Positions 1-16,410 of a stretch of 21,933 nucleotides of DNA are shown here, one piece after another. The notes under the pieces are model-generated. The model had not been told where the DNA came from and ran no database searches. It saw only the letters and a program-made list of their open reading frames with translations. The position numbers were made by a program, and so were the translations under genes. Numbering within the stretch: position 1 is the stretch's first letter; each line of letters opens with the position of its first letter. This DNA comes from a virus. The stretch covers positions 1-21,933 of the IMG/VR virus record IMGVR_UViG_3300025889_001074; one strand, written 5' to 3'.

Positions 1-222
1 CCAATAATCCACACTAGAAGTAGAATCACCTTGCCATATTAAACCCCCTGCCACCCCTGTTCTTTCTCCTGGGTTAAACCAAAACATAACAGAAAAAGGG
101 TAAGAAAAGTTGTCACCAATTATCGTCGAAGATGACAGCCTATCATCAGAACCATCCAGTTTAACCCCACCATAACAAACTGAAGGGATAAGTAAAAACA
201 ATATAATTAACTTTTTTATCAT
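1..222 (-). CDS. Secreted LamG-like protein, N-terminal part (partial)
   Basis: The ATG at 220-222 has GGAG eight bases upstream and lies 17 nt after the stop of the 826-residue gene; the frame runs open to position 1, giving 74 residues. Residues 1-18 (MIKKLIILFLLIPSVCYG) are a signal peptide; the cysteine is not in a good lipobox. The mature start GVKLDGSDDRLSSSTII, then SYPFSVMFWFNPGE and GGLIWQGDS, follow the opening strands of a concanavalin A-like/LamG jelly roll, a carbohydrate- or ligand-binding fold common in adhesins. It continues the run of exported fibre-like proteins. The rest of the protein is outside the window, so its full domain make-up is unknown. Confidence 0.75.
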   Translation of the reverse strand, partial: MIKKLIILFLLIPSVCYGGVKLDGSDDRLSSSTIIGDNFSYPFSVMFWFNPGERTGVAGGLIWQGDSTSSVDYW

Positions 223-239
223 GCTGTTATCTCCATGTT

Positions 240-2720
240 TTATTGGCATATAAGAACACCGCTTCCAAACTTAACATCTTTTGTAGCGGTATCATCAGCA
301 TCATCATAATCCCGACCTAACCGAACGAAACAATTATCAAAAGCAGCCATACTATCTAAATTCGTGGCTGTTATGGTAAATGTTGTTATGTTATCATCTG
401 TTGAATCTAAAGTTACTCCACCGCTTATTTCGTTTATCGTATCAAATGAAGCTGTAACAATTGACTCTCCACTGCTGACACACATAAAATCAAGCTCAGG
501 ATCAACTTTTGTTGAGACTTCTCCTTCGGTCGATTTTACACTTCCATGATACACACATGAAGTAGAAGGAGTTATTGTTGGTACAAAATGCCAACCTGCA
601 TATTCGTGAGCATCCGAGGCTGCAATATTACTCCAAAAACCGTCACCCCCCTCTATTTGCATTGTCCCATCAAGAATAAATGTTCCTGATATTTTTGCGG
701 ATTGTGCGCCCATTGGAAATACATAAGATGAACTTCCTCCGGTTCCTATTTGCGTGGCTGTAGTACCATTACCAACAAATAAAGCATCATCCCCTGTTTC
801 CCAACAAATACGCCCCTCTGTAATCTCGCCCGTACAATCTGTTTGCTGAGGCAATTCAAGCGTTCCATTTGTTGTATCTAAGACATCACCTGCTGTCATT
901 GTAATAGATGAACAATCACCACTTGCACAATCAAAAACGTCTGTGACGTCTCCTGACCCTGCGGCGGTTAAATCGTGATCAACTCCTGCATCATCTGTAA
1001 AATAAAGCGTGTTCCCTGCATCATTCTTAACCCATATCTGACCCAATCCAGCAACATCTGATTGAGCAGCGGATTGCTCTAAAAGAAAAATACTTCCACC
1101 GCCTCTAACCTCAAATACTGTATCTGCGCCTGAATTATCTAACATCTTAAACCCTACAGCATTTGAATCGCCATCATCAACAAAACTAGCTGAATAAGCA
1201 ATTTGGTCATTAGTTAAAAGTGTATCGTCATTAATAACTTGAACAGCCCCTGGATGAGAAGCTACATCTTGCCAATCCTGAAAAAGAATAACATTTTCAG
1301 TGTCATTATCTATTAATCTTAAAAAGAACACCTCATCATCATCATCTGCCGCATGAATTAAATCTAATAAAGAATTTTCATTTGAAGAAAGTGTATCTGT
1401 GTTACTAATAGTTAATGCTGTTTCAATACCTGCTGTTGCATCATCCAATGTTGTTGTTATTAATTGTTGTGTCCCTGCGAACGCCACCGTACCATCACCC
1501 GATGGATCACCTATTGTGTCCCAGTTAGAACCAGCCCCGCCAACTCCTAACTGAAAATCTGTTCCGGCATCATCTGTAAAATATAGCTCGTTAGGCGTAG
1601 CTGTATTTACCCATAACTGACCATACCCAGCAACATCATTATTAGCATCCGCTTGTTCCTGAATATAAATAACCCCCGTATCAACTTCAATCCCTGTTGC
1701 CTGAACTGTTCCGCTAACATGGATTGTATGTGTTAAATCAAACTCCTCATTCGTTTCATCCCACGAAATAATAGCGTCCGAACTAGCCCGATCTACAATT
1801 ATTAAATCTTCGTTCTGATCTAAACCAGAACCAACTATATAACCTGTTGTAGACTTAATAGTCCCTGTATTAGTTATTGTCTTAGTTGAATCTGTAAACT
1901 TAAATGTTGATGATCCGTCTATGGTTCCTGATGAAGTTAAATATAAAAACTCCGTTCCTGAAGCTGTCATATTTAGCGATATATCCACATCATCCGTAGG
2001 CGACTCAACAAGAACAAAATCTGTTCCATCAAAGTCTAAAGTTAATGTTCCCGATGTAATAGAAACTCCATCCTCTTCAATAGTTACCGTTGAACCACCG
2101 CCTCCTCCTCCACTATTATCATCACTACAGGATACATTACCGCTCGCATCTGTCGTTAAAGCACCTCCATTACTATTTCCCGTACAGTCTAAATCTGTTA
2201 TTGCTAATAACGTAGTAAATAACTTACCTGTCATCGTGTCCCCAGCGTTGGATACAAAAACATCCTCAATCTTAGAACCGCTTAACGTCCCATCCGCTAA
2301 ATCATCCAGGTCTGCATCATAGGCTTGTACGGTTGAACCTATATCCGTATCAAGAACAGCATCAGTGTCCGTACTAGCTGAATTAATCTCTGCCATTGTG
2401 TCCCATTCAGTATCCCTTGTTAGACCGGAGTTAATTATTACGTTAACTTCACCGGAAGGGCTTTCACTTGTATCAAAATCACTATCATTTAAATCTATAG
2501 TATCTAACGTACCTGAATGTGTTGTAACATCCCCTTCCTGAAGCGTAACGGCTCCGCTACCGCCTCCTCCTCCTCCTGACGTAGTAATAGGATTTGAAGC
2601 CGTTCCAATTTCATTTCCAGATCCATCAGTTAACACAACCGGAATAGCAGCGAAAGCCGGTACAGCCAAGAGTAAAAATAAGTATACTCCTAATGTTTTA
2701 ATCCATTTTTTAATTTTCAT
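240..2720 (-). CDS. Large fibre-like repeat protein with Sec signal peptide
   Basis: An 826-residue protein with TGAGG five bases before the ATG. Residues 1-24 (MKIKKWIKTLGVYLFLLLAV, then PAFA) are a strong Sec signal peptide. The mature part starts AIPVVLTDGSGNEIGTASNP and continues into a Gly run, then repeated beta modules typical of phage fibres. One repeated pair starts VTLQEGDV (58) and VTIEEDGV (212). Another starts IYIQEQADANNDVAGYGQLW (351) and IFLLEQSAAQSDVAGLGQIW (544). The sequence LTSSGTIDGSSTFKF (261-275) lies between the pairs. The C-terminal region (about 595-826) is cysteine-rich, including DCASGDC, DCTG, ICW, SCVYHG, MCVSS, NCFVR and LICQ, which is unusual for a cytoplasmically assembled fibre. 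A phage adhesin is likely; export is the odd feature. Confidence 0.82.
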   Translation of the reverse strand: MKIKKWIKTLGVYLFLLLAVPAFAAIPVVLTDGSGNEIGTASNPITTSGGGGGGSGAVTLQEGDVTTHSGTLDTIDLNDSDFDTSESPSGEVNVIINSGLTRDTEWDTMAEINSASTDTDAVLDTDIGSTVQAYDADLDDLADGTLSGSKIEDVFVSNAGDTMTGKLFTTLLAITDLDCTGNSNGGALTTDASGNVSCSDDNSGGGGGGSTVTIEEDGVSITSGTLTLDFDGTDFVLVESPTDDVDISLNMTASGTEFLYLTSSGTIDGSSTFKFTDSTKTITNTGTIKSTTGYIVGSGLDQNEDLIIVDRASSDAIISWDETNEEFDLTHTIHVSGTVQATGIEVDTGVIYIQEQADANNDVAGYGQLWVNTATPNELYFTDDAGTDFQLGVGGAGSNWDTIGDPSGDGTVAFAGTQQLITTTLDDATAGIETALTISNTDTLSSNENSLLDLIHAADDDDEVFFLRLIDNDTENVILFQDWQDVASHPGAVQVINDDTLLTNDQIAYSASFVDDGDSNAVGFKMLDNSGADTVFEVRGGGSIFLLEQSAAQSDVAGLGQIWVKNDAGNTLYFTDDAGVDHDLTAAGSGDVTDVFDCASGDCSSITMTAGDVLDTTNGTLELPQQTDCTGEITEGRICWETGDDALFVGNGTTATQIGTGGSSSYVFPMGAQSAKISGTFILDGTMQIEGGDGFWSNIAASDAHEYAGWHFVPTITPSTSCVYHGSVKSTEGEVSTKVDPELDFMCVSSGESIVTASFDTINEISGGVTLDSTDDNITTFTITATNLDSMAAFDNCFVRLGRDYDDADDTATKDVKFGSGVLICQ
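969..1091 (-). repeat. Internal fibre repeat, copy 2
   Basis: Encodes residues 544-584 of the 826-residue protein (IFLLEQ to DHDL), the partner of the copy at 1548-1670. The two copies have diverged to 23/41 identity, so this is an old duplication and not a recent slippage event. Confidence 0.85.
1548..1670 (-). repeat. Internal fibre repeat, copy 1
   Basis: Encodes residues 351-391 of the 826-residue protein (IYIQEQ to DFQL). It aligns without gaps to residues 544-584 with 23 of 41 identical, including the shared NELYFTDDAG / NTLYFTDDAG core. Such repeats are typical of beta-structured phage fibres. Confidence 0.85.
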
Positions 2721-2736
2721 AAAATCCTCACTTTTG

Positions 2737-2907
2737 TTATTGAATATATAAAGGATTACTGGCAGTACCTATTTCAATACCGGCCCCATTTACTAATTTT
2801 ATGCGTGTTGCAGCATATACATAAGTCCCCGAAAGAATCGACCCTATTAAAAGACCAACAATAAACCCGTTAAACTGATTTTTAATAACTTTAATTAAGC
2901 GTTGCAT
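2737..2907 (-). CDS. 56-residue membrane/exported mini-protein sharing a fibre N-terminal motif
   Basis: This short gene has an ATG at 2905-2907 with AGGAG seven bases upstream and overlaps the previous stop by 13 nt. The protein starts MQRLIKVIKNQF and has a hydrophobic segment at 14-33 (GFIVGLLIGSILSGTYVYAA) that could be a membrane anchor or signal peptide. It ends RIKLVNGAGIEIGTASNPLYIQ. The last part nearly repeats the beginning of the mature 826-residue fibre-like protein encoded directly downstream (LTDGSGNEIGTASNPI). A 16-nt gap with TGAGG separates the two genes. The sharing suggests a duplicated N-terminal piece or a partner strand. Overlap, SD and this motif make it a credible gene despite its size. 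Confidence 0.8.
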   Translation of the reverse strand: MQRLIKVIKNQFNGFIVGLLIGSILSGTYVYAATRIKLVNGAGIEIGTASNPLYIQ

Positions 2908-3116
2908 GGCTCAACTCCTATATTTAATGGTTCTTCCATATCTATATCGTAATACTTATCCCATTTGTCATATTCATTCCACATATAATCTGTCCCATAA
3001 TGAACCGCGCGCGGACCAATTGTAAAGAATCCAAGAACTAATAAAGATGCTATCATGATTAATCCATCTTTAACAGGTTTACGTAATAAATAATAAAACT
3101 CACTTAAAATCCGCAT
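2895..3116 (-). CDS. Small single-pass membrane protein
   Basis: A 73-residue protein. I take the ATG at 3114-3116, which has AAAAGG at good spacing; the in-frame start two codons earlier is a TTG. The N terminus is basic (MRILSEFYYLLRKPVKDG), one membrane segment spans about 18-35 (DGLIMIASLLVLGFFTIG), and the C-terminal part is acidic and aromatic (YMWNEYDKWDKYYDIDMEE). The start lies 17 nt inside the giant gene. A small membrane protein next to a muramidase-bearing gene could be holin-like or an accessory to ejection, but holin identity cannot be shown from one membrane segment. No family is recognised. Confidence 0.72.
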   Translation of the reverse strand: MRILSEFYYLLRKPVKDGLIMIASLLVLGFFTIGPRAVHYGTDYMWNEYDKWDKYYDIDMEEPLNIGVEPCNA

Positions 3117-6100
3117 TTTCAAGCACCTTTTGAATGTCTGTATAAGTTTTGTCTATAGCAGGTTTATTTCTCTGTTCCTGAAAAACTCTTAAATTTTTAA
3201 AATGTACACGCGTAAGAGCATTATACGTAGGTTTCATGCGAGTTAACTTTTTAAGCTCTTCTTTTGTAATTAATCCTCCAGCCTTTCTTTGACTTAACAT
3301 TTCATACTCAGAAAAGAAATCATTAAGCTGACGTTTAGGATTTTCAGGTGACCTTATAATCAATGATCCTAAAACCGGCATATCTGCCATATCTTTTATT
3401 TCCTGCATTGTGAAATTTCTGTAAAATCCGCCCGTATATCCATTCATTAAAGAATCCAACTGAACCGGAGATATATTATCAAACCCTAAATCAGCCATTC
3501 CTTTAGCCATTGATACAGCTAATGTTGATGAATACCATTTCTTTCTCAAATGTTTAGGAAGATATTTCATCCCCTCAGATTCAATCGGAACTCCTAAAAA
3601 GTTTTTATTTTTAGCCACCTGTAAATAAGGGACAAACATTGTAGGAGTTGGATCAGGAATTTGAGTTATAAATGTTTGAAATAAGGATGTTACAGCTTTA
3701 GGATCTTTTTCCCATAAAGCATCAATAGCAGCTAAAGGAGTTGATATAAAAATAACTCCCCATTCAAACGGATTCGGAAGTCTGTAAACATAATCTCCTA
3801 CTTGAAAAAACTGATTACTGTATTTATAAGCTCTCGGAAGATTTTTATACCATTGTTCATCTTTATTTCTCCACCAACTAAGAAGGGCCGGAATCGTTAA
3901 CCATGCAACCCCCCTTACAATTGTACGAATAGGATTTGACTTAAATCTACGCCCGATCTTATCTACTGACTGTAAAGAAGCATTAAAGAAAGCCGCCGCT
4001 TCATTAATCCTTTTACCCCAAGCTCCATTTCGAGTGAAATTAACCGTAACATCTTGAGCCGCATTAAACGCATGTACAAAAGCATCCTGTTCATCCCAAT
4101 CAGGATTGTCTTTTAATGCTTTTTTATAAACACCTTCTAACTCAGCAATGCGCGGTGACAACTCACTTATTTGCATAAGAGCGCGCGCTGTATCAACCGG
4201 ATGTTTGGCTATTCTAAGGCTCTTACCGCCAAACCCTTTTAATTTCTCATCTAAGAGGATATCATAAGAATTCCATACCGCAGCTCGATCATACCCAACA
4301 AAACCGCTTAATTCGCCTCCTACGGCTTTAAAACGCCATGTTAAATCACCTTCCTTAGCTGATAAATCTTTATATAACCCTTGTACAGGATCAAAAGGAG
4401 TGGACATCTTTCTTTCTGAATTTAAAGTATATGTAAACGCATCTCTAAAAGGATTCCTGACTAATCCAAATGCAGGATTTAATTGAGTTGCACCTAACCT
4501 CAGCAAACGGGAAAACTTAGATAATACAGCTAAAACAGGTCCCCGTTCTAATATATCAACACCTGATAATGATCGATACAATTCTGGGTGAATTTCATAG
4601 AACCTTCTTTTTCCATTAATATGAATAGAAACAATGTTATCTTTACCGGAATAAAAAGGTTTTTGATTAAATATGGATAAAATAGCGTTCGGATCAAACT
4701 CAGAATCTTCGTTAACATCTGCGAGAGCTGCATTATCTAAAAGATCCCCAAGATCATGTTGATGTAAAGTTTCAATTAACCGTCCTAAAGATATATTGGT
4801 TACACCTTGAGGAGGTTGAACTTCAGTAATAAATCCACCAACACCTTCATTATTAGCCATTTCAGCAATTAATTTAGCCAAATGAAGCTTTTGAGCCTTA
4901 TTAATCATTTCAGTTGCTTGACCAATAAGACTTTCAATAGGATTAATAACCGGACGGCCTGAACCTTTTAACTTTTTCAACGGATCACTTTGATTAACTG
5001 TTCCCCCAGACCCTTTCTTAATAACCTGAACCTCATCAAGAAAAGCACGTTTAAATGGTATATAGATAGGATTCATAGCGCGTATTACTTTCGCATCATC
5101 TTCCGTTAATCCTCCGGCTCTAATAATCCAATCAAGCAGATGATTTGACCATATTGTTATATCATCCACCGCTTGATCCCACCCTTTATCTGCATATTTA
5201 TTTACTAAAAATTCAGTATCCCTTTGATCAAAACCGCTTTCTTTACCGCGAGACTCAATTAATAAAGCTCTTTTAGCAACAGCATAAGCAATAAATTTTT
5301 CCATATCATTGCGTGATACCGGTTCTAAAGCTTCAATAAGAGACTTTCCAACCGCATTTCCTGTTTCATCCACCGCCTTCTTTAAAACAAACGTACGTGC
5401 AATAGCCCCTGACTTCATCTTCATGTATGTGGCCATTTGGAAAGGATCTTCTGTAGGCTTTAATTTCTTTCCGCCGATCTGTCTTTGAATATCTTTAATC
5501 GTATATAGCTCATCAACAAACTTTGTAATAATAAACATTTTAGCGCGACGCAACTTATCTTTAACATTAAATATAGATTTTGTATGTTCTCCGCGGAAAT
5601 CAATCTGCTGAACAATACGATTCTCCGCCCCCTGTTCATACCATACACGATACTTATCTCTTAACTCATTAATATTCTTTGATAACTTAGGATTTGCAGG
5701 TAAATACTCATTGATGAAAAATTGATGGAATTTAGGAGCCTCTGTAGCTTCTAATCCCGTTTCAGTTAAATAGTGTCGCATATACTCTGCAAATCCCTCG
5801 TAATCTCTTCTTTGCGGGCTATAATCAAGATTCTTTAACTCTGTTTTAACTGCTTTAGATAAGTGACTCCATATTTTTTTGCCGGACCTAAGGGAAGTTG
5901 TTCCTTTTTCACGGGATTGATTATCAATCTCATGAGCAATCTCATGAGCAAGAACCTCCAACTCACCCCAAGTCTTTAATCTAATTAAAGCTTTATTCGT
6001 ATAATGAAGTCCGGCCGCCTTAACCATACGTTCCGTAGCTTTGCCTTTTATACTAACTTTAAAAGTATCTTCAGCAAACTTTATAATTTGTGTTTTATTA

Positions 6101-9012
6101 ATCGTTTTATCTGTAGATTTTTCAAGTTTTGGAGTCTTACCCCACTTCTGAGCCAGTAAAGCATCAGCCGGATTTTTAAAGGTATCCGCATCACCATCAT
6201 TAACACCATTAGCTCTAATGGATAATGCAGATCCTTTAGGTGATTTTCTTACGAGACTTTTCTTTTTCTCCCGAATGTCCCGATCTGATTTCTTTGTTTC
6301 GATTTGCTTATCTTTTTGCTTTTGGTTTTGTATCCCCGTCCTTTTGGCATTTGTTTTCTCCTTTTGTGCTTGTTCCCATATAGTGCGAAGTTGGTCATCT
6401 GTTTTAAATTCTGGTTTGCCTTTAAAGTAAACATATTCTGATCCAAGATAGAATGGATCATCAGAAAAACCTTCTTTATCTTCTGAATAAAGAAATTTCG
6501 CTGGAACATCTATAGACACAACATCTTCTACGCTTCCTGTATATGCTAAAGCAGAATCAAAGTCTACCGTAACAAAATCCCCATCCTTAATTTCTCTCTT
6601 TATTTTTTTAGATGTATCATCTATCCCTCTATAAATTGTTATTGTTTTTTCTGGATCGATGCCAAGATTAGATAAATTTGATTCTGGATCAACTGCATAT
6701 TTTCTCATGCTCGTATTATAATCGCCGTATTGACTTGCACTTCCAACAACCTTCTGAATAAAATCCTCTGCCGTATCATACTTCTTGGCTTGTTCAATAA
6801 GGCTCTCAGATACTTTCTTAGGCTCAATTAACGCTGAGGTAGGTATTGGTTCGTTTTCTGCAAAATCTTTCAATTCTGGCGCCTTAGAAGGCTCTACAGA
6901 GGGTTTTTGAGGTGTAATCGGAGGATTATCTGATATGCTTTTTGGTGTATAAAATAATTCACCTCTATTTTGAGAATCTATATCTTTTGAAAACCTTAAA
7001 TCTTGTATTGGAACCTTCTTTGTAATTATTCTTTTTGTTGGATTTAAGCTTATTGCATATTCCTTTCTGTATGTAACAAAATCATTTTCTACTAATTCAG
7101 TTTGTTTGCTATCTCCAACATTCCTATACACAGTTATTGTTCCATCTTTATTAGATATTGATTCAATAAACTCTGGGTTTATTTTTTGAACTTCTTGTAA
7201 TTCAATAGATTCTTTAGGTGTTTTTTGTTTTTCTTCCGGAATGATAATCTCTTCCTCTTGTGTCATTTGCTCTGTAATAGCGGTATCAATCTCATCAGCA
7301 TTATCAATAATCTCCTTAGCCACTGATTCAGCCGCAACTTCTATTTCTTGTGGATCAACCCCTAAAGCAACGGCTTGATTAAGCATCGCATCTGTGTGAA
7401 TACCTCGGCCGGAAGTCATTCCACCCATTATTCCACCCGATCCAGCCCCTGCAATAAAGGCTTCCACCATTCCTTCATGAAGCTGAATAGTATTATCATA
7501 TCCTAATTTGGCTATTAAATTAACCCAAGCAGATTGAGCAACCTCCTCAATCCCTTCTTGCGCAGCACCTATAGCAATATCTTTGACTAACTTACCTTCC
7601 CCACCCCTTATATATCGAGATAAAGGTAATTGTTCTAAAATAGTTGTTCCTGCCCCTGTCGCAAAAAATATCAAATTAGCTTTCTTTTTACTAGCTCCGG
7701 CTTCTCGCGCTTTTAAAAATTGATCCGGTGCTTCTAACCCAAAACCCAATGCAGCCGCACCGGCAAAAGGATTACCTGTAGACATACCAATTAATGTAGC
7801 AACACCTAAAGATGGAATTGACTCCATAACTAAAGCTTGGGCTCTTCTGAAAGAAGGATTTTCCAGGAAAGACCCTCCATAGATAGCAGGATCGCGCGTA
7901 TTAGATAACTCTTGTTGCGCTCGCTCAAAAAAACCTGATAATTTTTTACCTCCCTTAGAAATCTTATCTCCAATGTTCTCAATCATCTGTTGTTGACGTT
8001 CAACATTCTCACGTATGCCATTAATACGATCACGTGTCGCTTGAATATCTGCAGGATCAATACCTAAATCTTCCATCTGCTTAAATATCTCTTCATCATC
8101 TTCACGCGTACTTTCCATCTGAAGGCTTATAAATTCAGGTAGCGATTGTCCAAACCAATCAATAAGATTTGAGAATCCGGCATAAATATTATCAACACCT
8201 ATTGCTAAACTCTTAACATTTTCTCCCCCTTGATCCGCAACTCCTTCAAGAATACCCTTAGACACATCCCACACCTTAGAAGCTGTTTTTTCAATTACTG
8301 AAGGAGGAACAGGACGCATTAAATCCGCGGTTGTCCGGCCAATTGATTCTTCATTTTGTATTAAAGTACCGCCTGATAATAATTCTTCTGTTGTAAACCC
8401 ATATGAATCACCTTCAGAGGCTTCAGCAGTTGATACAGAAAATGGATTTAATGCCGATATATCAAATATTTCTTTAATCTCTTTAATACGGTTTTCCCAT
8501 CCCTTTTGAAAATCACCATACTTTTTAGGATTATTTTTAATTAAATTTGCGTTATGATTTTCTCTTTCAGTAATTATTTGTTTCAATAAAGTATTCTCAC
8601 CATTAACCCTAATATAATCCACAACGGCTTTCTGTGTCTTTGGCCCCATCAATCCGTCCGACTTTGTTCCAACAACCTTTTGAAGAGATTTAATAGCTGT
8701 TCTTGGGGATGCGTTAATTCCGAAGTCAAACAACACAACCGCTGTCTTATCTGGAAGCATATCTAACTTAGGTCTAACAAAGAATTCATTTTGATAGAAT
8801 TCTCTAGTTTCACCTTCCGTTAAATGAATTACATTCTTTAGGGGTAATTTTCTTTGCTTTGCGTAAGAATTATACGTTTGCTGTGTTATACCTCGGTTAG
8901 ATATTCCACTAGAACCAATTTCATTACGATCAATACCGCCTTCAAACAATAAAGACATATTTAAAGCTGTATCAAAGGTACCTGTTAATTCTTGAGTTTT
9001 AAAGGGTGCCAT
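3100..9012 (-). CDS. Giant multidomain virion/ejection protein: muramidase, ART-like x2, zincin, LPD38-like
   Basis: I choose the ATG at 9010-9012 (AAAAGGC upstream; 1,970 residues), not the in-frame extension to 9258 through the previous gene. Residues 1-184 match a GH108 N-acetylmuramidase with its peptidoglycan-binding end: LLFEGGIDRNE (proposed catalytic E24), GISNRGITQQTYN, then LFDFGINASPRTAIKSLQKV and DGLMGPKTQKAV. Residues about 396-538 are Gly/Ala-rich and hydrophobic, possibly membrane-inserting. Two ADP-ribosyltransferase-like modules follow (about 611-690, TITVYRNVGD; about 744-866, TITIYRGIDD with SEYVYF). Then a zincin (HEIAHE at 1023-1028, EGFAEYM at 1072-1078). The C-terminal part (about 1493-1863) resembles the LPD38 region of large polyvalent proteins. 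It is likely an ejected internal protein that opens peptidoglycan. Domain calls are by motif; the muramidase and the zincin motif are firmest. Confidence 0.85.
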   Translation of the reverse strand: MAPFKTQELTGTFDTALNMSLLFEGGIDRNEIGSSGISNRGITQQTYNSYAKQRKLPLKNVIHLTEGETREFYQNEFFVRPKLDMLPDKTAVVLFDFGINASPRTAIKSLQKVVGTKSDGLMGPKTQKAVVDYIRVNGENTLLKQIITERENHNANLIKNNPKKYGDFQKGWENRIKEIKEIFDISALNPFSVSTAEASEGDSYGFTTEELLSGGTLIQNEESIGRTTADLMRPVPPSVIEKTASKVWDVSKGILEGVADQGGENVKSLAIGVDNIYAGFSNLIDWFGQSLPEFISLQMESTREDDEEIFKQMEDLGIDPADIQATRDRINGIRENVERQQQMIENIGDKISKGGKKLSGFFERAQQELSNTRDPAIYGGSFLENPSFRRAQALVMESIPSLGVATLIGMSTGNPFAGAAALGFGLEAPDQFLKAREAGASKKKANLIFFATGAGTTILEQLPLSRYIRGGEGKLVKDIAIGAAQEGIEEVAQSAWVNLIAKLGYDNTIQLHEGMVEAFIAGAGSGGIMGGMTSGRGIHTDAMLNQAVALGVDPQEIEVAAESVAKEIIDNADEIDTAITEQMTQEEEIIIPEEKQKTPKESIELQEVQKINPEFIESISNKDGTITVYRNVGDSKQTELVENDFVTYRKEYAISLNPTKRIITKKVPIQDLRFSKDIDSQNRGELFYTPKSISDNPPITPQKPSVEPSKAPELKDFAENEPIPTSALIEPKKVSESLIEQAKKYDTAEDFIQKVVGSASQYGDYNTSMRKYAVDPESNLSNLGIDPEKTITIYRGIDDTSKKIKREIKDGDFVTVDFDSALAYTGSVEDVVSIDVPAKFLYSEDKEGFSDDPFYLGSEYVYFKGKPEFKTDDQLRTIWEQAQKEKTNAKRTGIQNQKQKDKQIETKKSDRDIREKKKSLVRKSPKGSALSIRANGVNDGDADTFKNPADALLAQKWGKTPKLEKSTDKTINKTQIIKFAEDTFKVSIKGKATERMVKAAGLHYTNKALIRLKTWGELEVLAHEIAHEIDNQSREKGTTSLRSGKKIWSHLSKAVKTELKNLDYSPQRRDYEGFAEYMRHYLTETGLEATEAPKFHQFFINEYLPANPKLSKNINELRDKYRVWYEQGAENRIVQQIDFRGEHTKSIFNVKDKLRRAKMFIITKFVDELYTIKDIQRQIGGKKLKPTEDPFQMATYMKMKSGAIARTFVLKKAVDETGNAVGKSLIEALEPVSRNDMEKFIAYAVAKRALLIESRGKESGFDQRDTEFLVNKYADKGWDQAVDDITIWSNHLLDWIIRAGGLTEDDAKVIRAMNPIYIPFKRAFLDEVQVIKKGSGGTVNQSDPLKKLKGSGRPVINPIESLIGQATEMINKAQKLHLAKLIAEMANNEGVGGFITEVQPPQGVTNISLGRLIETLHQHDLGDLLDNAALADVNEDSEFDPNAILSIFNQKPFYSGKDNIVSIHINGKRRFYEIHPELYRSLSGVDILERGPVLAVLSKFSRLLRLGATQLNPAFGLVRNPFRDAFTYTLNSERKMSTPFDPVQGLYKDLSAKEGDLTWRFKAVGGELSGFVGYDRAAVWNSYDILLDEKLKGFGGKSLRIAKHPVDTARALMQISELSPRIAELEGVYKKALKDNPDWDEQDAFVHAFNAAQDVTVNFTRNGAWGKRINEAAAFFNASLQSVDKIGRRFKSNPIRTIVRGVAWLTIPALLSWWRNKDEQWYKNLPRAYKYSNQFFQVGDYVYRLPNPFEWGVIFISTPLAAIDALWEKDPKAVTSLFQTFITQIPDPTPTMFVPYLQVAKNKNFLGVPIESEGMKYLPKHLRKKWYSSTLAVSMAKGMADLGFDNISPVQLDSLMNGYTGGFYRNFTMQEIKDMADMPVLGSLIIRSPENPKRQLNDFFSEYEMLSQRKAGGLITKEELKKLTRMKPTYNALTRVHFKNLRVFQEQRNKPAIDKTYTDIQKVLENADFK

Positions 9013-9874
9013 TCTTTTGCCTTTTTTCAAACTCTTTCTTAGGAAGCCATGTATCATTCCCGATATAAATAAACGGCTTACCTTGAAAAACACGTTCTTC
9101 TTCATTCCTGAACCCAAAATCATCCGGTCCGAACTTTTCAAGAATCTTCTCTTCAATATCAGGGAATCTTGTAGCATAGTTTGGTCCAAACTTTCTTGCA
9201 GCTCTATCTCGAGCCTCTTTCTCTGTCCTAATAGGGAACTCAATCCCTTGTATCTCAAAATTACCTGTCTCTAATTGACCTAAAAATTTATCTTTATCAG
9301 AAACTTTATCTAACCCTGAACTCGATTTAATCTCACGATCCGATCTCTTATTAAATTGATCCACGATATCATCAACCCCTAAATCATAATCTGTTCCATG
9401 CTCAATCTTCAACTTTAATAAACTATCCACCTTATCTTCATTTTTAGCTGTTGAACTCATTATTGTCTTAACACCATCAACAAACTTTGTTCTATTTTCA
9501 CGTTTTTGTTGAGCAATTTTTTGTCGAGAAGCATCTGCCAATGTTTGAGATAGGTTTTGTAAACCGCCTGATATATCCGGTCCTGTACGATTAACAAGCA
9601 AATTAGTCCCTCCAATATTAGCTGTCTCAACCTGGTTGTTACCAGAACCAGATACACTTTGAGCTAATTCAGAGATAACTTGTAATAATCCTCCTCCGTT
9701 AGAGGGTTGTACTCCGCCTCCTTGACTTTCTGCTTGGTTCGGCGCTCCTCCTTGATTGATAATAATATTAACCAAATCTTGCAAGGAAGTTGCCTGCGTA
9801 TTACCTCCAAATATATTAGCACCTACACCTCCTCCTGGCTTAACAGATCCATCTTGGTTAGGTAAAAACGTCAT
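8999..9874 (-). CDS. Candidate internal / ejection protein B
   Basis: A 291-residue protein with AAGGAG five bases before its ATG and a 9-nt gap from the gene before. Residues 1-110 are low-complexity, rich in Gly, Asn and Gln (GGAPNQAESQGGG, GSGNNQVETANIGG). A charged helical part follows (110-200, e.g. ADASRQKIAQQKRENRTKF). The C-terminal domain is mixed and has the repeated phrases ARKFGPNY and EKFGPDDFGF. It has no cysteines, signal peptide or membrane segment. Its last 14 nt overlap the start of the giant multidomain gene, so it is probably made with it as part of the internal virion proteins. No family recognised. Confidence 0.7.
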   Translation of the reverse strand: MTFLPNQDGSVKPGGGVGANIFGGNTQATSLQDLVNIIINQGGAPNQAESQGGGVQPSNGGGLLQVISELAQSVSGSGNNQVETANIGGTNLLVNRTGPDISGGLQNLSQTLADASRQKIAQQKRENRTKFVDGVKTIMSSTAKNEDKVDSLLKLKIEHGTDYDLGVDDIVDQFNKRSDREIKSSSGLDKVSDKDKFLGQLETGNFEIQGIEFPIRTEKEARDRAARKFGPNYATRFPDIEEKILEKFGPDDFGFRNEEERVFQGKPFIYIGNDTWLPKKEFEKRQKNGTL

Positions 9875-9883
9875 GTTATCTCC

Positions 9884-10576
9884 TTATTTATCAAAAATTC
9901 CACCAATATTTGCACCGGCTTCAGCTCCTAATAACGGATTCCCATAAGGAAGTCCAGCTAATCCACCTATACCAAGCCCAATTAATGATCCAATAGGATT
10001 CTTATTCGGCACATTAACCTTAGATTTAAAAGGAAGCGTCGTTTGATATTGCTGCTGCGCGAGCTGTTGTTGCTGAGTATTATGATTACTAGCTAAACCT
10101 AAAAGATTTAAAATAGCTCCGGTATCCGCATTGGCTACATTAGACACTCCGGCAAGTTGACTAAGCTTCTGATTTTCATCTGATACCTGAAGATTCTCTC
10201 TTTGTAAAATAGCCTCAGTCGCTAATTTAGAAATTAAATCTGTTATCTGATCACCATAAAACTTAGAACCTCCCAACCCTCTATCAAACAAACTATTTTC
10301 CAAAGAAGGTAAGGCTATCCTTGAAGATTCCTTAAAGAAAGTATCTTCAAACTCCTGCAAACTAGCCTCTCTATTAGCCGTTGTTACACCAATACTTTTA
10401 AGAATACTTTTCTGTAAAGCCTGAACCTCAGCCCGATCTAAAGCCGCTTGTTCAGATTCGTTGAATGAGTAAGCATTATCCGCAAAATTAACACTTCCAA
10501 AAGGTGTATTAAAATCAACCTTTGGAGGCGGTGTAAATTTCGGTATCTCTACTGTTGGTTGTGAATTCTTCCCCAT
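9884..10576 (-). CDS. Candidate internal / ejection protein A
   Basis: A 230-residue protein whose ATG (10574-10576) has a strong AGAGGAG seven bases upstream, inside the GNAT gene. The N terminus is proline-rich (IPKFTPPPKVDFNTPFG). A helical middle follows (residues about 38-140, with YSFNESEQAALDRAEVQALQ and LISKLATEAILQRENLQ), then a Gln-rich stretch (NTQQQQLAQQQYQ, about 166-178). The tail is hydrophobic and Gly-rich (PIGSLIGLGIGGLAGLPYG, 194-212, then GAEAGANIGGIF). Phage ejection proteins often combine helical segments with Gly-zipper membrane-active ends. It lies in the block leading to the giant ejection-like protein. Family not recognised; role inferred from composition and order. 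Confidence 0.7.
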   Translation of the reverse strand: MGKNSQPTVEIPKFTPPPKVDFNTPFGSVNFADNAYSFNESEQAALDRAEVQALQKSILKSIGVTTANREASLQEFEDTFFKESSRIALPSLENSLFDRGLGGSKFYGDQITDLISKLATEAILQRENLQVSDENQKLSQLAGVSNVANADTGAILNLLGLASNHNTQQQQLAQQQYQTTLPFKSKVNVPNKNPIGSLIGLGIGGLAGLPYGNPLLGAEAGANIGGIFDK

Positions 10577-11135
10577 TGTTCCACTCCTCTTTTAATATGG
10601 CCATCATAATGATATCATCCTGAATATCCCCATTACGAAAAGCTTTTCTTCTAACACCTTCCTGCTTAAACCCTAATCTTCTATGTATCGCGTATCCTAA
10701 TCTATTACTCTTAATCACATCACCATCAATTCTATCAAACTCAAACTCATTAAAAGCAGCGGTAATTAATGTTCGAGTTGCATCCTCTGTAGGCGTTAAA
10801 TCTCCTCTTTTAAATTTCTTTACAAACTTCTTTGTAAACTCAGGATCAATCATCCCTGCAATACTGCAGGAAAAAGAATTAACATCAAAAAAATAAATAA
10901 ATCCAACTCTTTTAGCATCCTTTCCTTTTGTCATAACTGTCCATATAAACATCTGATATCCGCCTAAAAGTGCTTTTATATATAATTTAGCCTCCTGATC
11001 CGTCATTTTACATAAACTGAATTTACCCATATACCCCTTTTTATCGCCTCGATGAAGATCAATAAAATATTGAAAATCATTATCCATGAAAGGAAATAAA
11101 ACTGTTTTCTTACCATAAAATACATTCGTTCTCAT
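10515..11135 (-). CDS. GNAT-family N-acetyltransferase
   Basis: A 206-residue protein. The C-terminal half carries the RimJ/RimL-like GNAT ending: a helix and strand before it (LITAAFNEFEFDRIDGDV), then SNRLGYAIHRRLGFKQEG (143-160) and GDIQDDIIMMAILKEEW (169-185). This corresponds to the CoA-binding helix and the GF..EG signature. The N-terminal half is less typical but includes the central strand FIYFFDVNSFSCSIAG. Similar acetyltransferases occur within phage structural regions, with unknown targets. The ATG overlaps the collar-fibre stop (ATGA) and has only a distant SD, so it is probably coupled. The last 62 nt overlap the start of the next gene. Possible targets are virion or host proteins. 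Confidence 0.83.
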   Translation of the reverse strand: MRTNVFYGKKTVLFPFMDNDFQYFIDLHRGDKKGYMGKFSLCKMTDQEAKLYIKALLGGYQMFIWTVMTKGKDAKRVGFIYFFDVNSFSCSIAGMIDPEFTKKFVKKFKRGDLTPTEDATRTLITAAFNEFEFDRIDGDVIKSNRLGYAIHRRLGFKQEGVRRKAFRNGDIQDDIIMMAILKEEWNNGEEFTTNSRDTEIYTASKG

Positions 11136-11980
11136 GTCTTTATAATTACTCCTGCTGCGTGTGAAGGCTGTATATTGTTATGCGCGCCTCCACCTCCGGT
11201 TGATCCTGTACTCTTATTTCCTGTTGTCGCAGAAGCTGAATGATATATATCGCCAGCACCACCACCATTAGTAGTTGTTTGAGTCGCAATTGTATGAGTA
11301 TGAGCCGGCATTTCACTTTCCGATAATGTATGTGTTTCCGTCCCTACTTCACCCCCTAAACTATCAGCATTTGCATCTGTAACAATATTTTTAGGTGTAC
11401 CTCCCAAATTATCTAAACCTATAAATGTACGCCCTCTTAAATCCGGTAAATTAAATGTCGTAGACCCGTCCCCAACTCCATAGGTTGTACTGACTAAAGA
11501 AAAAAGTGTGGCATATGTTGTACGCGAAACGGCTGATCCATCACATAAAAGCCATCCAGAAGGAGCTGAAGTACCTGCATAAGGCATCATTGCTCCGGCC
11601 GGTATAAATTGATCTGTTGATTGAGATAATACAATCCATCCATCATTTGCTTTATTACGCACATTAATAACATTTTCTGATCCAGAGGTATCAATCCATA
11701 TATCTCCTACTTGAGGATTTGACATAACCGTAGATGATGAATGAACAACTCCTAAAATCACCCATTCAGAGTTGCGATATACCTTAAGAAAATCATTAGT
11801 GCTATCGTACCAAACCTGACCTTCAATAGGAGAAGAAGGAGCTGAACCGGATACAATAACTTTCTGGTTCAATTTTGTAATAACATTATCTAATTCACCA
11901 TCCACCCTAGAGGCTGTTATAGGAACACCTCCATTTCGATCATCTACAAAGTTATATTGTCTTACTGAGGTCGTTGACAT
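11132..11980 (-). CDS. Tail fibre with phage collar domain
   Basis: A 282-residue protein without a signal peptide. Residues 7-74 are the shared RQYN module (see the copy at 13314-13517), followed by a short beta linker (DIWIDTSGS...WIVL). Residues about 125-190 are a phage tail collar domain: FIPAGAMMPYAG, SGWLLCDGSAVSRTTYATLF, TTFNLPDLRGRTFIGLD. The C terminus has MPAHTHT and GGGGAHNNIQPSHAAGVIIKT, the usual ending of collar-type adhesins. Such proteins form the receptor-binding fibre or its tip. No clear SD is visible before the ATG, so translation probably depends on the gene ending 2 nt upstream. Its stop overlaps the GNAT start by 4 nt (ATGA). Confidence 0.9.
   Translation of the reverse strand: MSTTSVRQYNFVDDRNGGVPITASRVDGELDNVITKLNQKVIVSGSAPSSPIEGQVWYDSTNDFLKVYRNSEWVILGVVHSSSTVMSNPQVGDIWIDTSGSENVINVRNKANDGWIVLSQSTDQFIPAGAMMPYAGTSAPSGWLLCDGSAVSRTTYATLFSLVSTTYGVGDGSTTFNLPDLRGRTFIGLDNLGGTPKNIVTDANADSLGGEVGTETHTLSESEMPAHTHTIATQTTTNGGGAGDIYHSASATTGNKSTGSTGGGGAHNNIQPSHAAGVIIKT
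11759..11962 (-). repeat. Fibre N-terminal module, copy 2 (paralogous to 13314-13517)
   Basis: Encodes residues 7-74 of the collar-domain fibre (RQYNFVDD to SEWV). It is 46/68 identical to copy 1, so the two fibre genes share a duplicated N-terminal module with different C-terminal domains. The module is probably for attachment or trimerisation (inference). Confidence 0.9.
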
Positions 11981-11982
11981 AA

Positions 11983-12297
11983 TTATTTAATATTTGCAAA
12001 GTTAGTATTACCACCTAATTCAGCTTTATTAAGCTTCATATGATAACAATTTCCGTTAACATGAGTTTCTTCACAATTTCTTATAGATTCTGAACCTAAA
12101 GGACCCCACTCTCCGGCAGGATACTTAACGATTGCAGCATAAAGGGTAGCTCCAACAATAGCTCCAACTACAGCTATCTCAAGACTCGAGGCTCCTAATA
12201 AAGATGTTGCTTCAATAACATTAGCCTCACTCATCTTTGGTGTAACAGCCATACATAATGCTAAAGCTATAAACATTGTTAATATAAGTTTTTTCAT
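11983..12297 (-). CDS. Small exported protein with membrane segment and Cys pair
   Basis: A 104-residue protein with AGGAGG four bases before its ATG; the SD overlaps the preceding stop. Residues 1-25 (MKKLILTMFIALALCMAVTP, then KMSEA) look like a Sec signal peptide with probable cleavage after SEA. Residues about 40-57 (EIAVVGAIVGATLYAAIV) form a hydrophobic, Gly/Ala-rich membrane segment. The C-terminal part is polar and has two cysteines (C75, C84) that could pair in the periplasm. LALC is a poor lipobox because of Leu at -1. It lies between two fibre genes, so it may be a fibre partner, a superinfection-exclusion factor or a spanin-like protein. None of these is shown by the sequence. Confidence 0.75.
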   Translation of the reverse strand: MKKLILTMFIALALCMAVTPKMSEANVIEATSLLGASSLEIAVVGAIVGATLYAAIVKYPAGEWGPLGSESIRNCEETHVNGNCYHMKLNKAELGGNTNFANIK

Positions 12298-12305
12298 AAT
12301 TCCTC

Positions 12306-13598
12306 CTATTTAAACCCGATTATTATAAATCCATCCCCACCTGTTCCACCTGCACCGCTTGCAATCCGTCCGGCTCCACCGCCTCCGGCAGCTATTCCTC
12401 CATTAGATCCATTAGATGAATTACCCTCTTCTCCACCAACTCCATAGTAAGATGATCCCCCGGCTCCTCCTGCATTAGCTGTTCCAGATTGATCCCCACC
12501 TGAACCTGATCCAGTTGTTGCTATTCCGCCAACAGTAATTGTCGTTGCATCCATTGATCCTGCTGAATGACCTGCTCCACCAAGATCTGTTGCGTCTGCG
12601 CCACCATTAAGCCCTTTATTACCCCCCTGAGCTGTTAATGTATAATTAGATGGAGCCGTATCTCCGACAAAAGTACTATCCCCACCATCAACACCATTTG
12701 CTGCCCCAGAACCACCTGCACCACCACTACCAATTGTGTAAGTATAAGTATTTCCTGCAGTAATATCCATCACATGACCTATAATGCAATCACCACCTGC
12801 ACCACCCGATCCACCGCAATTCGTTCCGCAATCACCACCTCCGCCTCCTCCACCCCCTCCAGCACACATCGTTATAACCGCTTTAGATGTCCCAGATGGA
12901 GCATCAATTGTTCCATTAGAAGTAAATATAGAATCTCCTGCCGATGCCCAAACCCCATCACCTCTCCAAAATGTCGTTGTAGAAGCATTTGTACCACTAT
13001 CAAAATGTGTAATAGCAAGTGTTCCTGTAATACCCGTATTAAGGTCTACCTGCTCGTATAAAGGATTATTATTGCTTCCTTGGTTACTTAGATACCTTGA
13101 CTCGTTTGTGTCCTTATTTAGGGCTTCCAGCGTGTTTGTGCCTGTAACATAAAGTAAATCACCCTGAACAAGCGTTATTGATGAATCAATATCTAATACC
13201 GTTGACCATGAAGATCCATTGTAAAGCTGAAGAAGATCATCATCTGTATTATAAAATATATCCCCATCTTGAGGCGTTGCTACATATGATGTTCCAATAT
13301 GAAGAACAACGCCAACCCATTCATTATTGCGATATACTTTAAATACATCATTAACTGAATCAAACCACATCATCCCCTCAATAGGCGTAGATGGAGCGGT
13401 CCCTTTAATTAAAACCTTCTGATTTAATTTAGTGATAATCGCATCAAACTCTTCATCCATCTTTAAAGCTGTAATAGGTATACCGTTGTTCCTATCATCC
13501 ACCCAATTATATTGCCGCGAAGCTTCAGTTGAAGATTGAGCCGGTACACACATTAAGAGTATTGTTAATAAACAAAATAATCCGATTCTTCTAAACAT
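12306..13598 (-). CDS. Glycine-rich tail-fibre-like protein with Sec signal peptide
   Basis: I place the start at the ATG at 13596-13598 (AAGGAAA upstream), giving 430 residues; an in-frame start at 13655 would sit inside the previous gene. Residues 1-20 (MFRRIGLFCLLTILLMCVPA) form a clear signal peptide, with likely cleavage after VPA. Residues 28-95 are a module starting RQYNWVDDRNNGIPIT that is 46/68 identical to the same module in the fibre at 11132-11980. A beta-repeat linker follows. From about 244 to the end is a glycine-rich domain (nine consecutive glycines, repeated GGAGG, terminal GFIIIGFK) with four cysteines (C245, C257, C261, C271), similar to Gly-rich phage adhesin tips. A signal peptide on a fibre protein is unexpected. 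It may be exported to the periplasm or cell surface. Confidence 0.82.
   Translation of the reverse strand: MFRRIGLFCLLTILLMCVPAQSSTEASRQYNWVDDRNNGIPITALKMDEEFDAIITKLNQKVLIKGTAPSTPIEGMMWFDSVNDVFKVYRNNEWVGVVLHIGTSYVATPQDGDIFYNTDDDLLQLYNGSSWSTVLDIDSSITLVQGDLLYVTGTNTLEALNKDTNESRYLSNQGSNNNPLYEQVDLNTGITGTLAITHFDSGTNASTTTFWRGDGVWASAGDSIFTSNGTIDAPSGTSKAVITMCAGGGGGGGGGDCGTNCGGSGGAGGDCIIGHVMDITAGNTYTYTIGSGGAGGSGAANGVDGGDSTFVGDTAPSNYTLTAQGGNKGLNGGADATDLGGAGHSAGSMDATTITVGGIATTGSGSGGDQSGTANAGGAGGSSYYGVGGEEGNSSNGSNGGIAAGGGGAGRIASGAGGTGGDGFIIIGFK
13314..13517 (-). repeat. Fibre N-terminal module, copy 1 (paralogous to 11759-11962)
   Basis: Encodes residues 28-95 of the glycine-rich fibre, running from RQYN to NNEWV. 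It aligns without gaps to the second copy with 46 of 68 residues identical. It lies directly after the signal peptide, so the export signal appears to have been added to, or lost from, an otherwise shared module. Confidence 0.9.
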
Positions 13599-13920: not shown

Positions 13921-14132
13921 TACGTTAAAAACTCCTCAACAATTGTTTTAACTCCTTCAATATCTGAAGAAATTGAAGTAATTTCTCCTTCATAATCATC
14001 ATTAATCCTTGTTCTTACCAAAAACCCATTCTCTGCGGATTCAACTACGATATTTTTTCTAACCTTAGTAGAAACACCATTTTTTGCATTATTAAGCCTT
14101 ACACTTGGTTCTACAAAAACATTTGCACTCAT
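13920..14132 (-). CDS. Small unknown protein in tail module
   Basis: A 70-residue protein whose ATG overlaps the preceding stop (TAATG), with AAGGAG seven bases before it. The sequence is polar, with predicted short strands (KNIVVESAENGFLVRTRI) and a helical, acidic end (DIEGVKTIVEEFLT). There is no signal peptide, cysteine or membrane segment. It is tightly coupled to the nozzle gene before it and to the next small gene by a one-base overlap. I do not recognise it; a tail-assembly accessory role rests on position only. Confidence 0.75.
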   Translation of the reverse strand: MSANVFVEPSVRLNNAKNGVSTKVRKNIVVESAENGFLVRTRINDDYEGEITSISSDIEGVKTIVEEFLT

Positions 14133-15676
14133 TAGTTAACTCCTTCCATTATTCCTCTTACTAAGAACCAAGGAATAATAATACGTGCATCTAAAGTATT
14201 TTGTCTGAATTCAATAAACATCATTCTTCCGCGCCCTAATATATCAGAAGTATGCACAATCTCATTCCCCTGCGTATCCCAATAAGCAACATCCCATAAA
14301 GCTTCATCCCATAAAGAGCTTGACGCTTCAACTATCAAAGATTTAGTTATTTTATCCGAAGATAGTGAATCTAACCCATACCAATAATCAATATTCAAAG
14401 TAAGCGTTTTAGTTGCTTGAATTAAAGCTTCTATTGTATGAGGCTTCTTATAATTCTGAGGTTTTTTGAAATAAAGAGCCGGCATAGCCAATTTAAAACT
14501 TATAGCTGTACCATCATCATTTGAACCCGTATTAATCTTACGCACATAACCATCTTCATCACCAACTAAAATATCTCCATTAATACGAGCTAACATTGAA
14601 TATATATTAAATGGATAAGTAAACCTCCCAACAAAATTACCGGCATCAACAGAATAAACCAATGTCTGAAAATTATTAGTAATAGGAAGATTTAAGTAAT
14701 AAAAATTCATTCTTTTATCAAAAGCACCGCTTAATAAATCGGTATTGCTCACTGTACTAATTAATTGCCTATAATAAGGTTCAATGAAATGTGATAAAGA
14801 CTTCACATCCAATTCATCATTATTAGCGGAAGAGAACAATGATGTTAAATTATTTGTAGATGGATAAACAATATCCTTACCTACATAATCAGCCGCCTTA
14901 ATAGAAATACATGTTGTAGGAAAATACTGAACAAAAGTAAAATCATACACATTAGCTCCGGCTGAGTAAATTACTGTATATTTACGGCATATAATCGCTA
15001 TTAAACCGCTATCACGGCCTCCATATGTTCTATACCCAAGTATTGTGTCACCTTCAGGGAGAACGGTGCTTAAATCAAGTGTTCCTGCGTCTGTAGCCCC
15101 TGTCCATGCTGTAGCACCATTCGCATTATTCGTCTTACTGAAATAAGCCATCATAGGAGTTGATGGAGAATTCAGCCATAACTTATTGCGGTGTACCCAG
15201 CCGGAGGTTGCGTCTTGAGGCATATTGGAATCAGAAGAAAGAGCAGATACAGAATATGCTGCGGTTGCTTTTTGAGGTACACCGCCATCTAACATGATTA
15301 ATTCATTTTTATACATTAAAGCTTGACCAACAACATCATCCGCGCGGCCTGTTATTATAGAATCAAATGTATCTACGCCATCAAACTTACCCCAAGCTGT
15401 ACCGGCACGAACAATAATATCCGTACCGCCTCCATCCCATTTAGCTTCAAACAAAACCTTTATCTTTTTCGTTGCCCCATAATCTGCATCCAACTGAACA
15501 TCATTAAATTTCTCACTGCCTTCTCTCTGGAAAGTAACCCCAAGATTACTACCTTTAAAATCTTTAAGAGTAAACCCATTTAAACAATCATAGACAAAAT
15601 CCGTAGGTGAATTCAACCGGTCTGTCCTTCGATTCATTCCTCTAAACTCTGTAAATACTTGTTCAAATGTAGGCAT
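14132..15676 (-). CDS. Tail nozzle / tubular protein B-like (T7 gp12 / P22 gp10 type)
   Basis: A 514-residue, almost entirely beta-predicted protein with many aromatic-ending strands: KKIKVLFEAKWDGGGTDIIV, GLIAIICRKYTVIYSAG, FTFVQYFPTTCISIKAADY and NGDILVGDEDGYVRKINTG. The N-terminal FRGMNRRTDRLNSP resembles the start of podophage nozzle proteins, where a strand near 'G.n...d...' begins a beta-propeller-like body. The C-terminal half has a Trp-rich repeat (SLWDEALWDVAYWDTQG, about 450-466) and a final strand pair. In T7 and P22 such proteins form the hexameric nozzle and carry or contact the fibres. The upstream SD is weak (GAG), so translation is probably coupled to the adaptor gene 2 nt before. 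The stop overlaps the next ATG by one base. Confidence 0.75.
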   Translation of the reverse strand: MPTFEQVFTEFRGMNRRTDRLNSPTDFVYDCLNGFTLKDFKGSNLGVTFQREGSEKFNDVQLDADYGATKKIKVLFEAKWDGGGTDIIVRAGTAWGKFDGVDTFDSIITGRADDVVGQALMYKNELIMLDGGVPQKATAAYSVSALSSDSNMPQDATSGWVHRNKLWLNSPSTPMMAYFSKTNNANGATAWTGATDAGTLDLSTVLPEGDTILGYRTYGGRDSGLIAIICRKYTVIYSAGANVYDFTFVQYFPTTCISIKAADYVGKDIVYPSTNNLTSLFSSANNDELDVKSLSHFIEPYYRQLISTVSNTDLLSGAFDKRMNFYYLNLPITNNFQTLVYSVDAGNFVGRFTYPFNIYSMLARINGDILVGDEDGYVRKINTGSNDDGTAISFKLAMPALYFKKPQNYKKPHTIEALIQATKTLTLNIDYWYGLDSLSSDKITKSLIVEASSSLWDEALWDVAYWDTQGNEIVHTSDILGRGRMMFIEFRQNTLDARIIIPWFLVRGIMEGVN

Positions 15677-15678
15677 AA

Positions 15679-16410
15679 TTAACTCAATATTGGGTTTTGG
15701 GTGAATATACCGCCTCCACCATTATTTTCCATTTGTTCAACAACAATATTATCATCTAATAACTCAGGGGAACCGTAAAGCACTTTAAACTTATTCAAAC
15801 TTCCTTCTAAATTCTGTGACCGATTACCATAAACTTTACTGTAATAATTAGCCGCTTCTTGATTGTTCTTATAATGAAGTATTTTATACGTTACTAAATC
15901 AGCTAACATCGTTAAATCAAAACCTTCCGGTATCCAACATGTTCCAGCCGGTGTATCTGTTGAAAGAATAGTTGGTATTTTCCAATATCTATATTTAATC
16001 AATTTACCTGCTGCATTTGCATCTGGAATTAAATACGGCCAAAAGAAATCTTCCCACTCTGTAACAATAGACGGGATTCCTGTATCTGTTTGAATTGGAT
16101 AGTTACGATCAAACTTTTGAGGCGTAATATATGTAATAGGCTTTTGGTTATCATATTTAAAAGACTTTTCATCAAAATCCTGAACATCTGAAGCTTTAGC
16201 ATACGTTGATGTTCCGGCTCCTAACGTCATTGATCCAGTAGCCTCTAAAGGTTTATATTTGTTTTCTGAAGCAAGATCATAAATAGCCTCATTTATGGTA
16301 TTAAAAACTAAAAGCGATAACCCTGCTAAAGATGTTAATACCGATTTATCCGGTTCTCCTAAATTATTTAATACCTTGTTAACGAGTTGTAACGCGGATG
16401 ATTTTGCCAT
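15679..16410 (-). CDS. Head-tail adaptor (T7 gp11 / P22 gp4-like)
   Basis: A 243-residue protein. The N terminus (SSALQLVNKVLNNLGEP, followed by a helix ending AIYDLASENKY) matches the helical start common to podophage adaptor proteins that dock below the portal. A beta-rich middle follows, including KYRYWKIPTILSTDTPAG. A helix pair then ends with TMLADLVTYKILHYKNNQEAA and YYSKVYGNRSQNLE, as in the tail tubular protein A family. The C terminus is low-complexity with a Gly run. In T7 and P22 this ring joins portal and nozzle. It lies directly before the nozzle-like gene with a 2-nt gap, the same order as T7 gp11-gp12. The family assignment is by pattern and order. Confidence 0.72.
   Translation of the reverse strand: MAKSSALQLVNKVLNNLGEPDKSVLTSLAGLSLLVFNTINEAIYDLASENKYKPLEATGSMTLGAGTSTYAKASDVQDFDEKSFKYDNQKPITYITPQKFDRNYPIQTDTGIPSIVTEWEDFFWPYLIPDANAAGKLIKYRYWKIPTILSTDTPAGTCWIPEGFDLTMLADLVTYKILHYKNNQEAANYYSKVYGNRSQNLEGSLNKFKVLYGSPELLDDNIVVEQMENNGGGGIFTQNPILS

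Follow-up and report, generated by a model that had tools for sequence, protein, structure and literature searches.

All fibres of tailed phages are taken to be built in the cytoplasm. The closest described systems to the one reported here are PblA and PblB of Streptococcus phages and Llp of phage T5 with similar superinfection-exclusion lipoproteins. PblA and PblB belong to the tail module, have binding domains, and come to lie on cell surfaces; the lipoproteins are exported, target the receptor, and shield progeny from debris (PMC9586334). A signal peptide is predicted for pneumococcal PblB, and S. mitis PblB is drawn without one (PMC4508584). We liken the cassette described below to PblB in origin and to T5 Llp in purpose. 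It differs from PblA and PblB, which are released by lysis, serve host adhesion, and are encoded by prophages in Gram-positive bacteria; a conserved cassette with signals has not been described for them. Like Llp, its products are phage encoded and predicted to be exported, and they may have a similar role at the receptor and debris. However, Llp is a small early lipoprotein, whereas the proteins described here have no lipobox on inspection and lie in the structural operon, and two of them (fibre A and fibre-1) are large and fibre-like. Fibre-1 and fibre-2 have one N-terminal domain in common, and both of their C-terminal domain types (collar and glycine-rich) occur in ordinary podophage tail fibres, but most ordinary fibres have no signal peptide and few cysteines. 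LamG/ConA-like domains (PF13385), known from phage and bacterial proteins, are present in several genes directly after the fibre gene (+1), where, unlike elsewhere, they are signal bearing and sit directly behind a signal-bearing fibre gene.

The stretch of DNA analyzed (the window; 21,933 bases) is a complete virus record. Its minus strand encodes the structural module of an uncultured virus resembling podophages: a scaffold-like gene and the major capsid protein come first, followed by the tail genes, two fibres, some smaller genes, a large internal protein, and finally the cassette genes. Its capsid protein is ∼31% identical to Vibrio phage capsid proteins. Near-identical contigs from other IMG samples (L001 and L006; 99.7% identical) indicate that the assembly is reproducible and make an artefact unlikely; L001 spans fibre-1, where the signal differs by one synonymous change only. 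The open reading frames and coordinates of the preliminary description were checked and are correct, with the sole exception of 1-222, which is cut by the contig end. Between the capsid and tail genes (17197-18976) are a methyltransferase-like gene and, by eye, a possible glycosyltransferase gene, the latter with a look-alike in the relative G002. The features relevant here are as follows.

1-222, minus strand: 18-aa signal peptide, then the first part of a probable LamG/ConA-like lectin that the contig end truncates
240-2720, minus strand: fibre A, 826 aa; signal peptide (24 aa), repetitive fibre-like body, 10 cysteines
2649-2720, minus strand: predicted fibre A signal peptide (MKIKKWIKTLGVYLFLLLAVPAFA/A), score 12.07
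2737-2907, minus strand: 56-aa protein; signal-like segment, site VYA/A, then a 24-aa mature peptide
3100-9258, minus strand: large internal virion-type protein, 2052 aa, upstream of the cassette; GH108 lysozyme, PG_binding_3, and LPD38 domains, no signal peptide
11132-11980, minus strand: fibre-2; phage tail collar domain (PF07484, 3.8e-25), N-terminal domain as in fibre-1, score 3.35
11983-12297, minus strand: 104-aa protein; signal peptide, second hydrophobic segment at residues 39-57, C-x8-C pair
12306-13598, minus strand: fibre-1, 430 aa; signal peptide (MFRRIGLFCLLTILLMCVPA/QSSTEA/SRQYNW), tail-fibre N-terminal domain, glycine-rich C-terminal domain
13194-13520, minus strand: fibre-1 N-terminal domain (RQYNWVDDRNNGIPIT...), 53% identical to fibre-2
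13518-13598, minus strand: predicted fibre-1 signal peptide, up to residue 27, score 12.0; this phage species only

We scored N termini with a home-made signal-peptide scorer based on n-region charge, h-region hydrophobicity, and the -3/-1 rule. In two annotated E. coli regions used for calibration, none of 18 Sec substrates scored below 9.42 and the cytosolic proteins peaked at 8.56, with some inner-membrane proteins overlapping the range of the Sec substrates. The preliminary description had reported four signal peptides and, at 2737-2907, an anchor-like segment, and had called for a predictor; by our scorer all five N termini behave as Sec signal peptides, with scores above the E. coli cytosolic maximum (1-222, 12.1; 240-2720, 12.07; 12306-13598, 12.0; 2737-2907, 11.4; 11983-12297, 11.1), and the 18 remaining window genes score 5.4 or less. 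The frame at 2895-3122 scores 9.6, yet it resembles a plain single-TM protein. According to the same scorer, each of the five has a positive n-region, a hydrophobic h-region, and small residues at -3/-1, and a Shine-Dalgarno-like sequence is found at each start. There is no second hydrophobic segment in 12306-13598, 240-2720, 2737-2907, or the available fragment of 1-222. Residue-shuffled N termini equaled the observed scores in 0 to 2 of 300 trials, and these shuffles, together with the 18 low-scoring genes, led us to reject chance hydrophobicity. Mis-called starts that skip a signal were also rejected (0 internal starts with a ribosome-binding site), as were Llp-like lipoproteins (no lipobox, [LVI][ASTVI][GAS]C, on inspection of the five N termini) and Tat export (of the five, only fibre-1 contains RR, and it shows no consensus and its h-region is very hydrophobic). 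Among the tail fibres and tail genes of T7, N4, and Vibrio phage 234P8, none scored as a signal peptide; T7 gp14, an internal virion protein, scored 9.1.

Runs of signal-bearing genes occupy the cassette position in two relatives, G002 (7163-9196, 9193-10959, and 11454-12050) and G006 (16332-18155, 15031-16335, and 14531-15076), despite diverged mature sequences. Their counterparts of fibre A are 19 to 28% identical to it, and the gene after fibre A differs in kind between the window and these two. G002 also has, upstream of its cassette, a homologue of the lysozyme part of the 3100-9258 protein. Within the window, the mature peptide of 2737-2907 and fibre A have IGTASNPL in common; the fibre A model from AlphaFold was too poor to use (pLDDT 34). 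The protein of 1-222 is probably a LamG lectin, based on a pairwise BLASTP match (E = 3e-4), partly in the signal region, to a signal-bearing LamG protein of L035; a Pfam search of the truncated fragment alone gave no match, LamG (PF13385) included.

Several other genes of relatives caught our attention. The G002 major capsid gene is apparently split by an insertion (L012:10042-11682) that encodes an HNH-type endonuclease-like protein (10353-10946; identity by eye). In the L005 tail module, a multi-membrane protein with a TPR-like C terminus (L005:12834-14195) lies between the fibre and an acetyltransferase-like gene. Look-alikes of the window tail protein at 14132-15676 are gene +4 of L040 (760 aa) and a protein of L033 without a signal (similarity by eye). 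After the cassettes of L026 and L073 are related signal-bearing proteins of 181 to 185 aa (L026:9080-9625, with four cysteines and a largely helical look, and L073:6700-7257), which could be periplasmic helpers or lysis proteins.

A family search started from the G002/G006 fibre returned 88 IMG/VR relatives, 80 of which were fetched. Signals are present in 63 of the 77 family fibres with complete 5' ends, or 55 of 67 after removal of duplicates. As a control we used 70 distinct IMG/VR fibres that share the common FWRGDGTW motif and were picked regardless of signals; only 6 have one (Fisher p = 1.6e-19; this and the following p values are optimistic because the loci are related by descent). The preliminary description held that phage fibres normally carry no signal, which applies to most fibres (64/70 controls), but with ∼8% of unselected IMG/VR fibres bearing one, signals are uncommon rather than unheard of. 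Across 65 non-redundant loci with mechanical gene calls, the +1 gene is signal bearing in 36 of 54 cases versus 27 of 320 for genes at least 3 away (p = 5e-20), the +2 gene in 17 of 48, and the gene before the fibre in 8 of 63. The +1 gene usually overlaps or abuts the fibre gene, and for 32 of the 36 signal-bearing +1 genes the start lies no more than 40 bases from the fibre stop.

Exported proteins are known to prefer an even cysteine count (PMC7678975). Among signal-bearing +1/+2 genes that contain cysteine, 36 of 42 have an even count (p = 2.8e-6), compared with 174 of 350 signal-free neighbors, and these genes were not chosen for cysteines. The fibre family itself (45/55 even) is a partly biased sample because the search motif contains cysteines. 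In the window, fibre A has 10 cysteines, fibre-1 has 4, and 11983-12297 has 2, with 0 to 3 in the signal-free proteins checked; the few control fibres with signals are richer in cysteines than the rest (p = 0.0016). Cysteine parity thereby provides evidence for the predicted export that is independent of the signal peptides. The hydrophobic N termini might instead be membrane- or virion-interaction helices or mis-called starts, as the acceptance of some inner-membrane proteins by the scorer and the T7 gp14 score would allow. Given the cleavage motifs, the positive n-regions, the lack of ribosome-binding sites at internal starts, and even cysteine counts only alongside signals, we consider this extremely unlikely. 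The earlier proposal that the phage exports adhesin-like proteins gains support from the synteny, the enrichment over control fibres, and the restriction of even cysteines to signal-bearing genes, and export of the cassette proteins from the cytoplasm is, as a prediction, well supported. The sequences would suit each of the roles put forward there (a coat on the cell, an adsorption block, attachment to other cells, or completion of assembly outside the cytoplasm) and do not separate them.

Pfam detected LamG (PF13385) in 8 of 41 +1/+2 genes, in keeping with exported adhesins or lectins, and a beta-helix in one. These matches would also suit exported proteins that bind or degrade polysaccharide, loosening the capsule or biofilm matrix from the outside and aiding release and spread, and the large signal-bearing proteins of L073 and L090 cluster with the L039 protein that has the beta-helix. 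We found no catalytic glycosidase or lyase domain, however, and no beta-helix in the window cassette, so a matrix-loosening function seems unlikely.

Fibre-1 differs from the cassette. Its signal is joined just before the domain that it has in common with fibre-2 (the RQYNWVDD domain), and its profile matches are to PF21722 Gly_rich_2 (5.8e-10) and phrog_863 (2.5e-24). The N-terminal domain is 53 to 58% identical to those of fibre-2 and the L005 and L015 fibres; its AlphaFold model (pLDDT 68) gave only non-significant PDB matches, several of them phage tail proteins. There is no signal peptide in fibre-2, which serves as an internal control, in L005, in the two genes of L015, or in the distant relatives L236, L237, and L238. 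Fibre-1 is a lineage-specific oddity, a signal peptide fused to a tail-fibre N-terminal domain that is signal free in every relative seen, and the exported set appears to have gained this tail-fibre-type protein recently. The neighboring 11983-12297 protein, for which no relative was found in the other fetched loci, may be membrane anchored given its second hydrophobic segment. The preliminary description had treated all of these N termini as one pattern, which lumps two things: 240-2720 and 1-222 belong to a conserved cassette, predicted to be exported, with 2737-2907 beside them, and the fibre-1 signal is a separate, window-specific layer. Relatives keep signals at the fibre A and 1-222 positions (G002 and G006) but not at fibre-1 (L005, L015, and L236 to L238).

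The architecture of fibre-1 bears on another possibility, in which the exported fibres belong to the virion: they would fold and acquire disulfides in the periplasm, then attach to particles at lysis or later. Consistent with such delayed assembly, the domain known from fibre-2 directly follows the fibre-1 cleavage site, a signal-bearing, cysteine-rich protein of L040 resembles the window tail protein at 14132-15676 by eye, and several +1/+2 genes have matches in PHROG families named "virion structural" or "baseplate wedge". A binding domain held in common, such as LamG, may be all that underlies those PHROG matches, however, and fibre A has no fibre-1/fibre-2 N-terminal domain. Moreover, among fibres with the RQYNWVDD domain, the signal occurs only in the window species, and the window and L015 also encode signal-free fibres. 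We regard late assembly onto virions as less likely than our preferred reading but as its main rival, chiefly on account of fibre-1 and the L040 look-alike. Because signal-free fibres are also encoded (fibre-2 and two in L015), the exported fibres are additional to them, and we therefore favor adhesins and lectins that act outside the virion.

We searched beyond IMG/VR for similar proteins. Cassette proteins used to probe 50,697 isolated-phage records found no whole homologue, with short or domain-level matches only. By tblastn, the fibre A N terminus, the 1-222 protein, and the L074 signal-bearing fibre had no match in isolated phages; the L015 signal-bearing fibre had a short match only, in Pelagibacter phage HTVC008M, and a LamG protein had partial matches in Synechococcus and Brevibacillus phages. 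Plasmids gave no match to the cassette proteins probed. A first query of a cellular genome collection gave no match, and a fibre-motif search of it gave 7, of which 2 are real: an apparently chromosomal Nomurabacteria surface protein and a phage-like contig in a Moraniibacteriota bin. Among Patescibacteria genomes, 3 of 145 match. Based on these isolated-phage, plasmid, and cellular-genome searches, the fibre family is thus mainly one of uncultured phages. The Nomurabacteria protein (L230) has a signal peptide and the same fibre repeat and adjoins a DNA ligase-like gene and other exported proteins.

Such a setting, beside exported proteins and apparently chromosomal genes, would fit lysogenic conversion, in which lysogens express surface adhesins for host attachment, and phage-derived adhesins such as PblB are known (PMC4508584). 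This was one contig, however, and the family is near-absent from cellular genomes (2 real matches in the collection and 3/145 Patescibacteria). The cassette genes are also tightly packed behind structural genes, with promoter-like sites not in excess over shuffles, and we judge lysogenic conversion very unlikely.

The explanation that we favor, at a probability of roughly 50%, is that the cassette encodes Sec-exported, periplasm-matured adhesins and lectins that act outside the virion on the envelope and debris. The predicted signals, synteny, enrichment, cysteine parity, and operon position can all be read from the sequences; the subsequent steps are proposed. The export cassette at the 3' end of the structural operon (2737-2907, then fibre A, then the probable LamG-type lectin of 1-222) would be made alongside the virion proteins, presumably late. 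Its products would cross the inner membrane by Sec, signal peptidase would remove the signal, and disulfides would form in the periplasm. From the periplasm or after lysis, the mature proteins could bind host surface glycans or receptors, which would limit superinfection and stop debris from capturing progeny. If the host is diderm, Sec by itself takes proteins no further than the periplasm, and we saw no outer-membrane exporter; surface coating of a diderm cell before lysis is therefore unexplained by this scheme. The tail-fibre N-terminal domain kept in fibre-1, a hint of virion attachment, also speaks against it.

A broader statement, which we hold with slightly less than even confidence, is that many uncultured tailed phages Sec-export disulfide-bonded fibres and lectins that serve them in the periplasm or once the cell has lysed, whether as soluble anti-adsorption decoys or as virion fibres fitted outside the cytoplasm. 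Our literature search returned no title or abstract describing an exported fibre/lectin cassette, and we found no description of such a putative extracytoplasmic step in the tailed-phage life cycle. The recurrence of the cassette suggests that infection by uncultured phages includes a phase outside the cytoplasm that has gone unstudied, with secreted proteins of a class that could influence superinfection, release, and the debris left around cells after lysis. Where metagenomes contain fibre genes with signals, these may be viral instead of encoding bacterial surface proteins.
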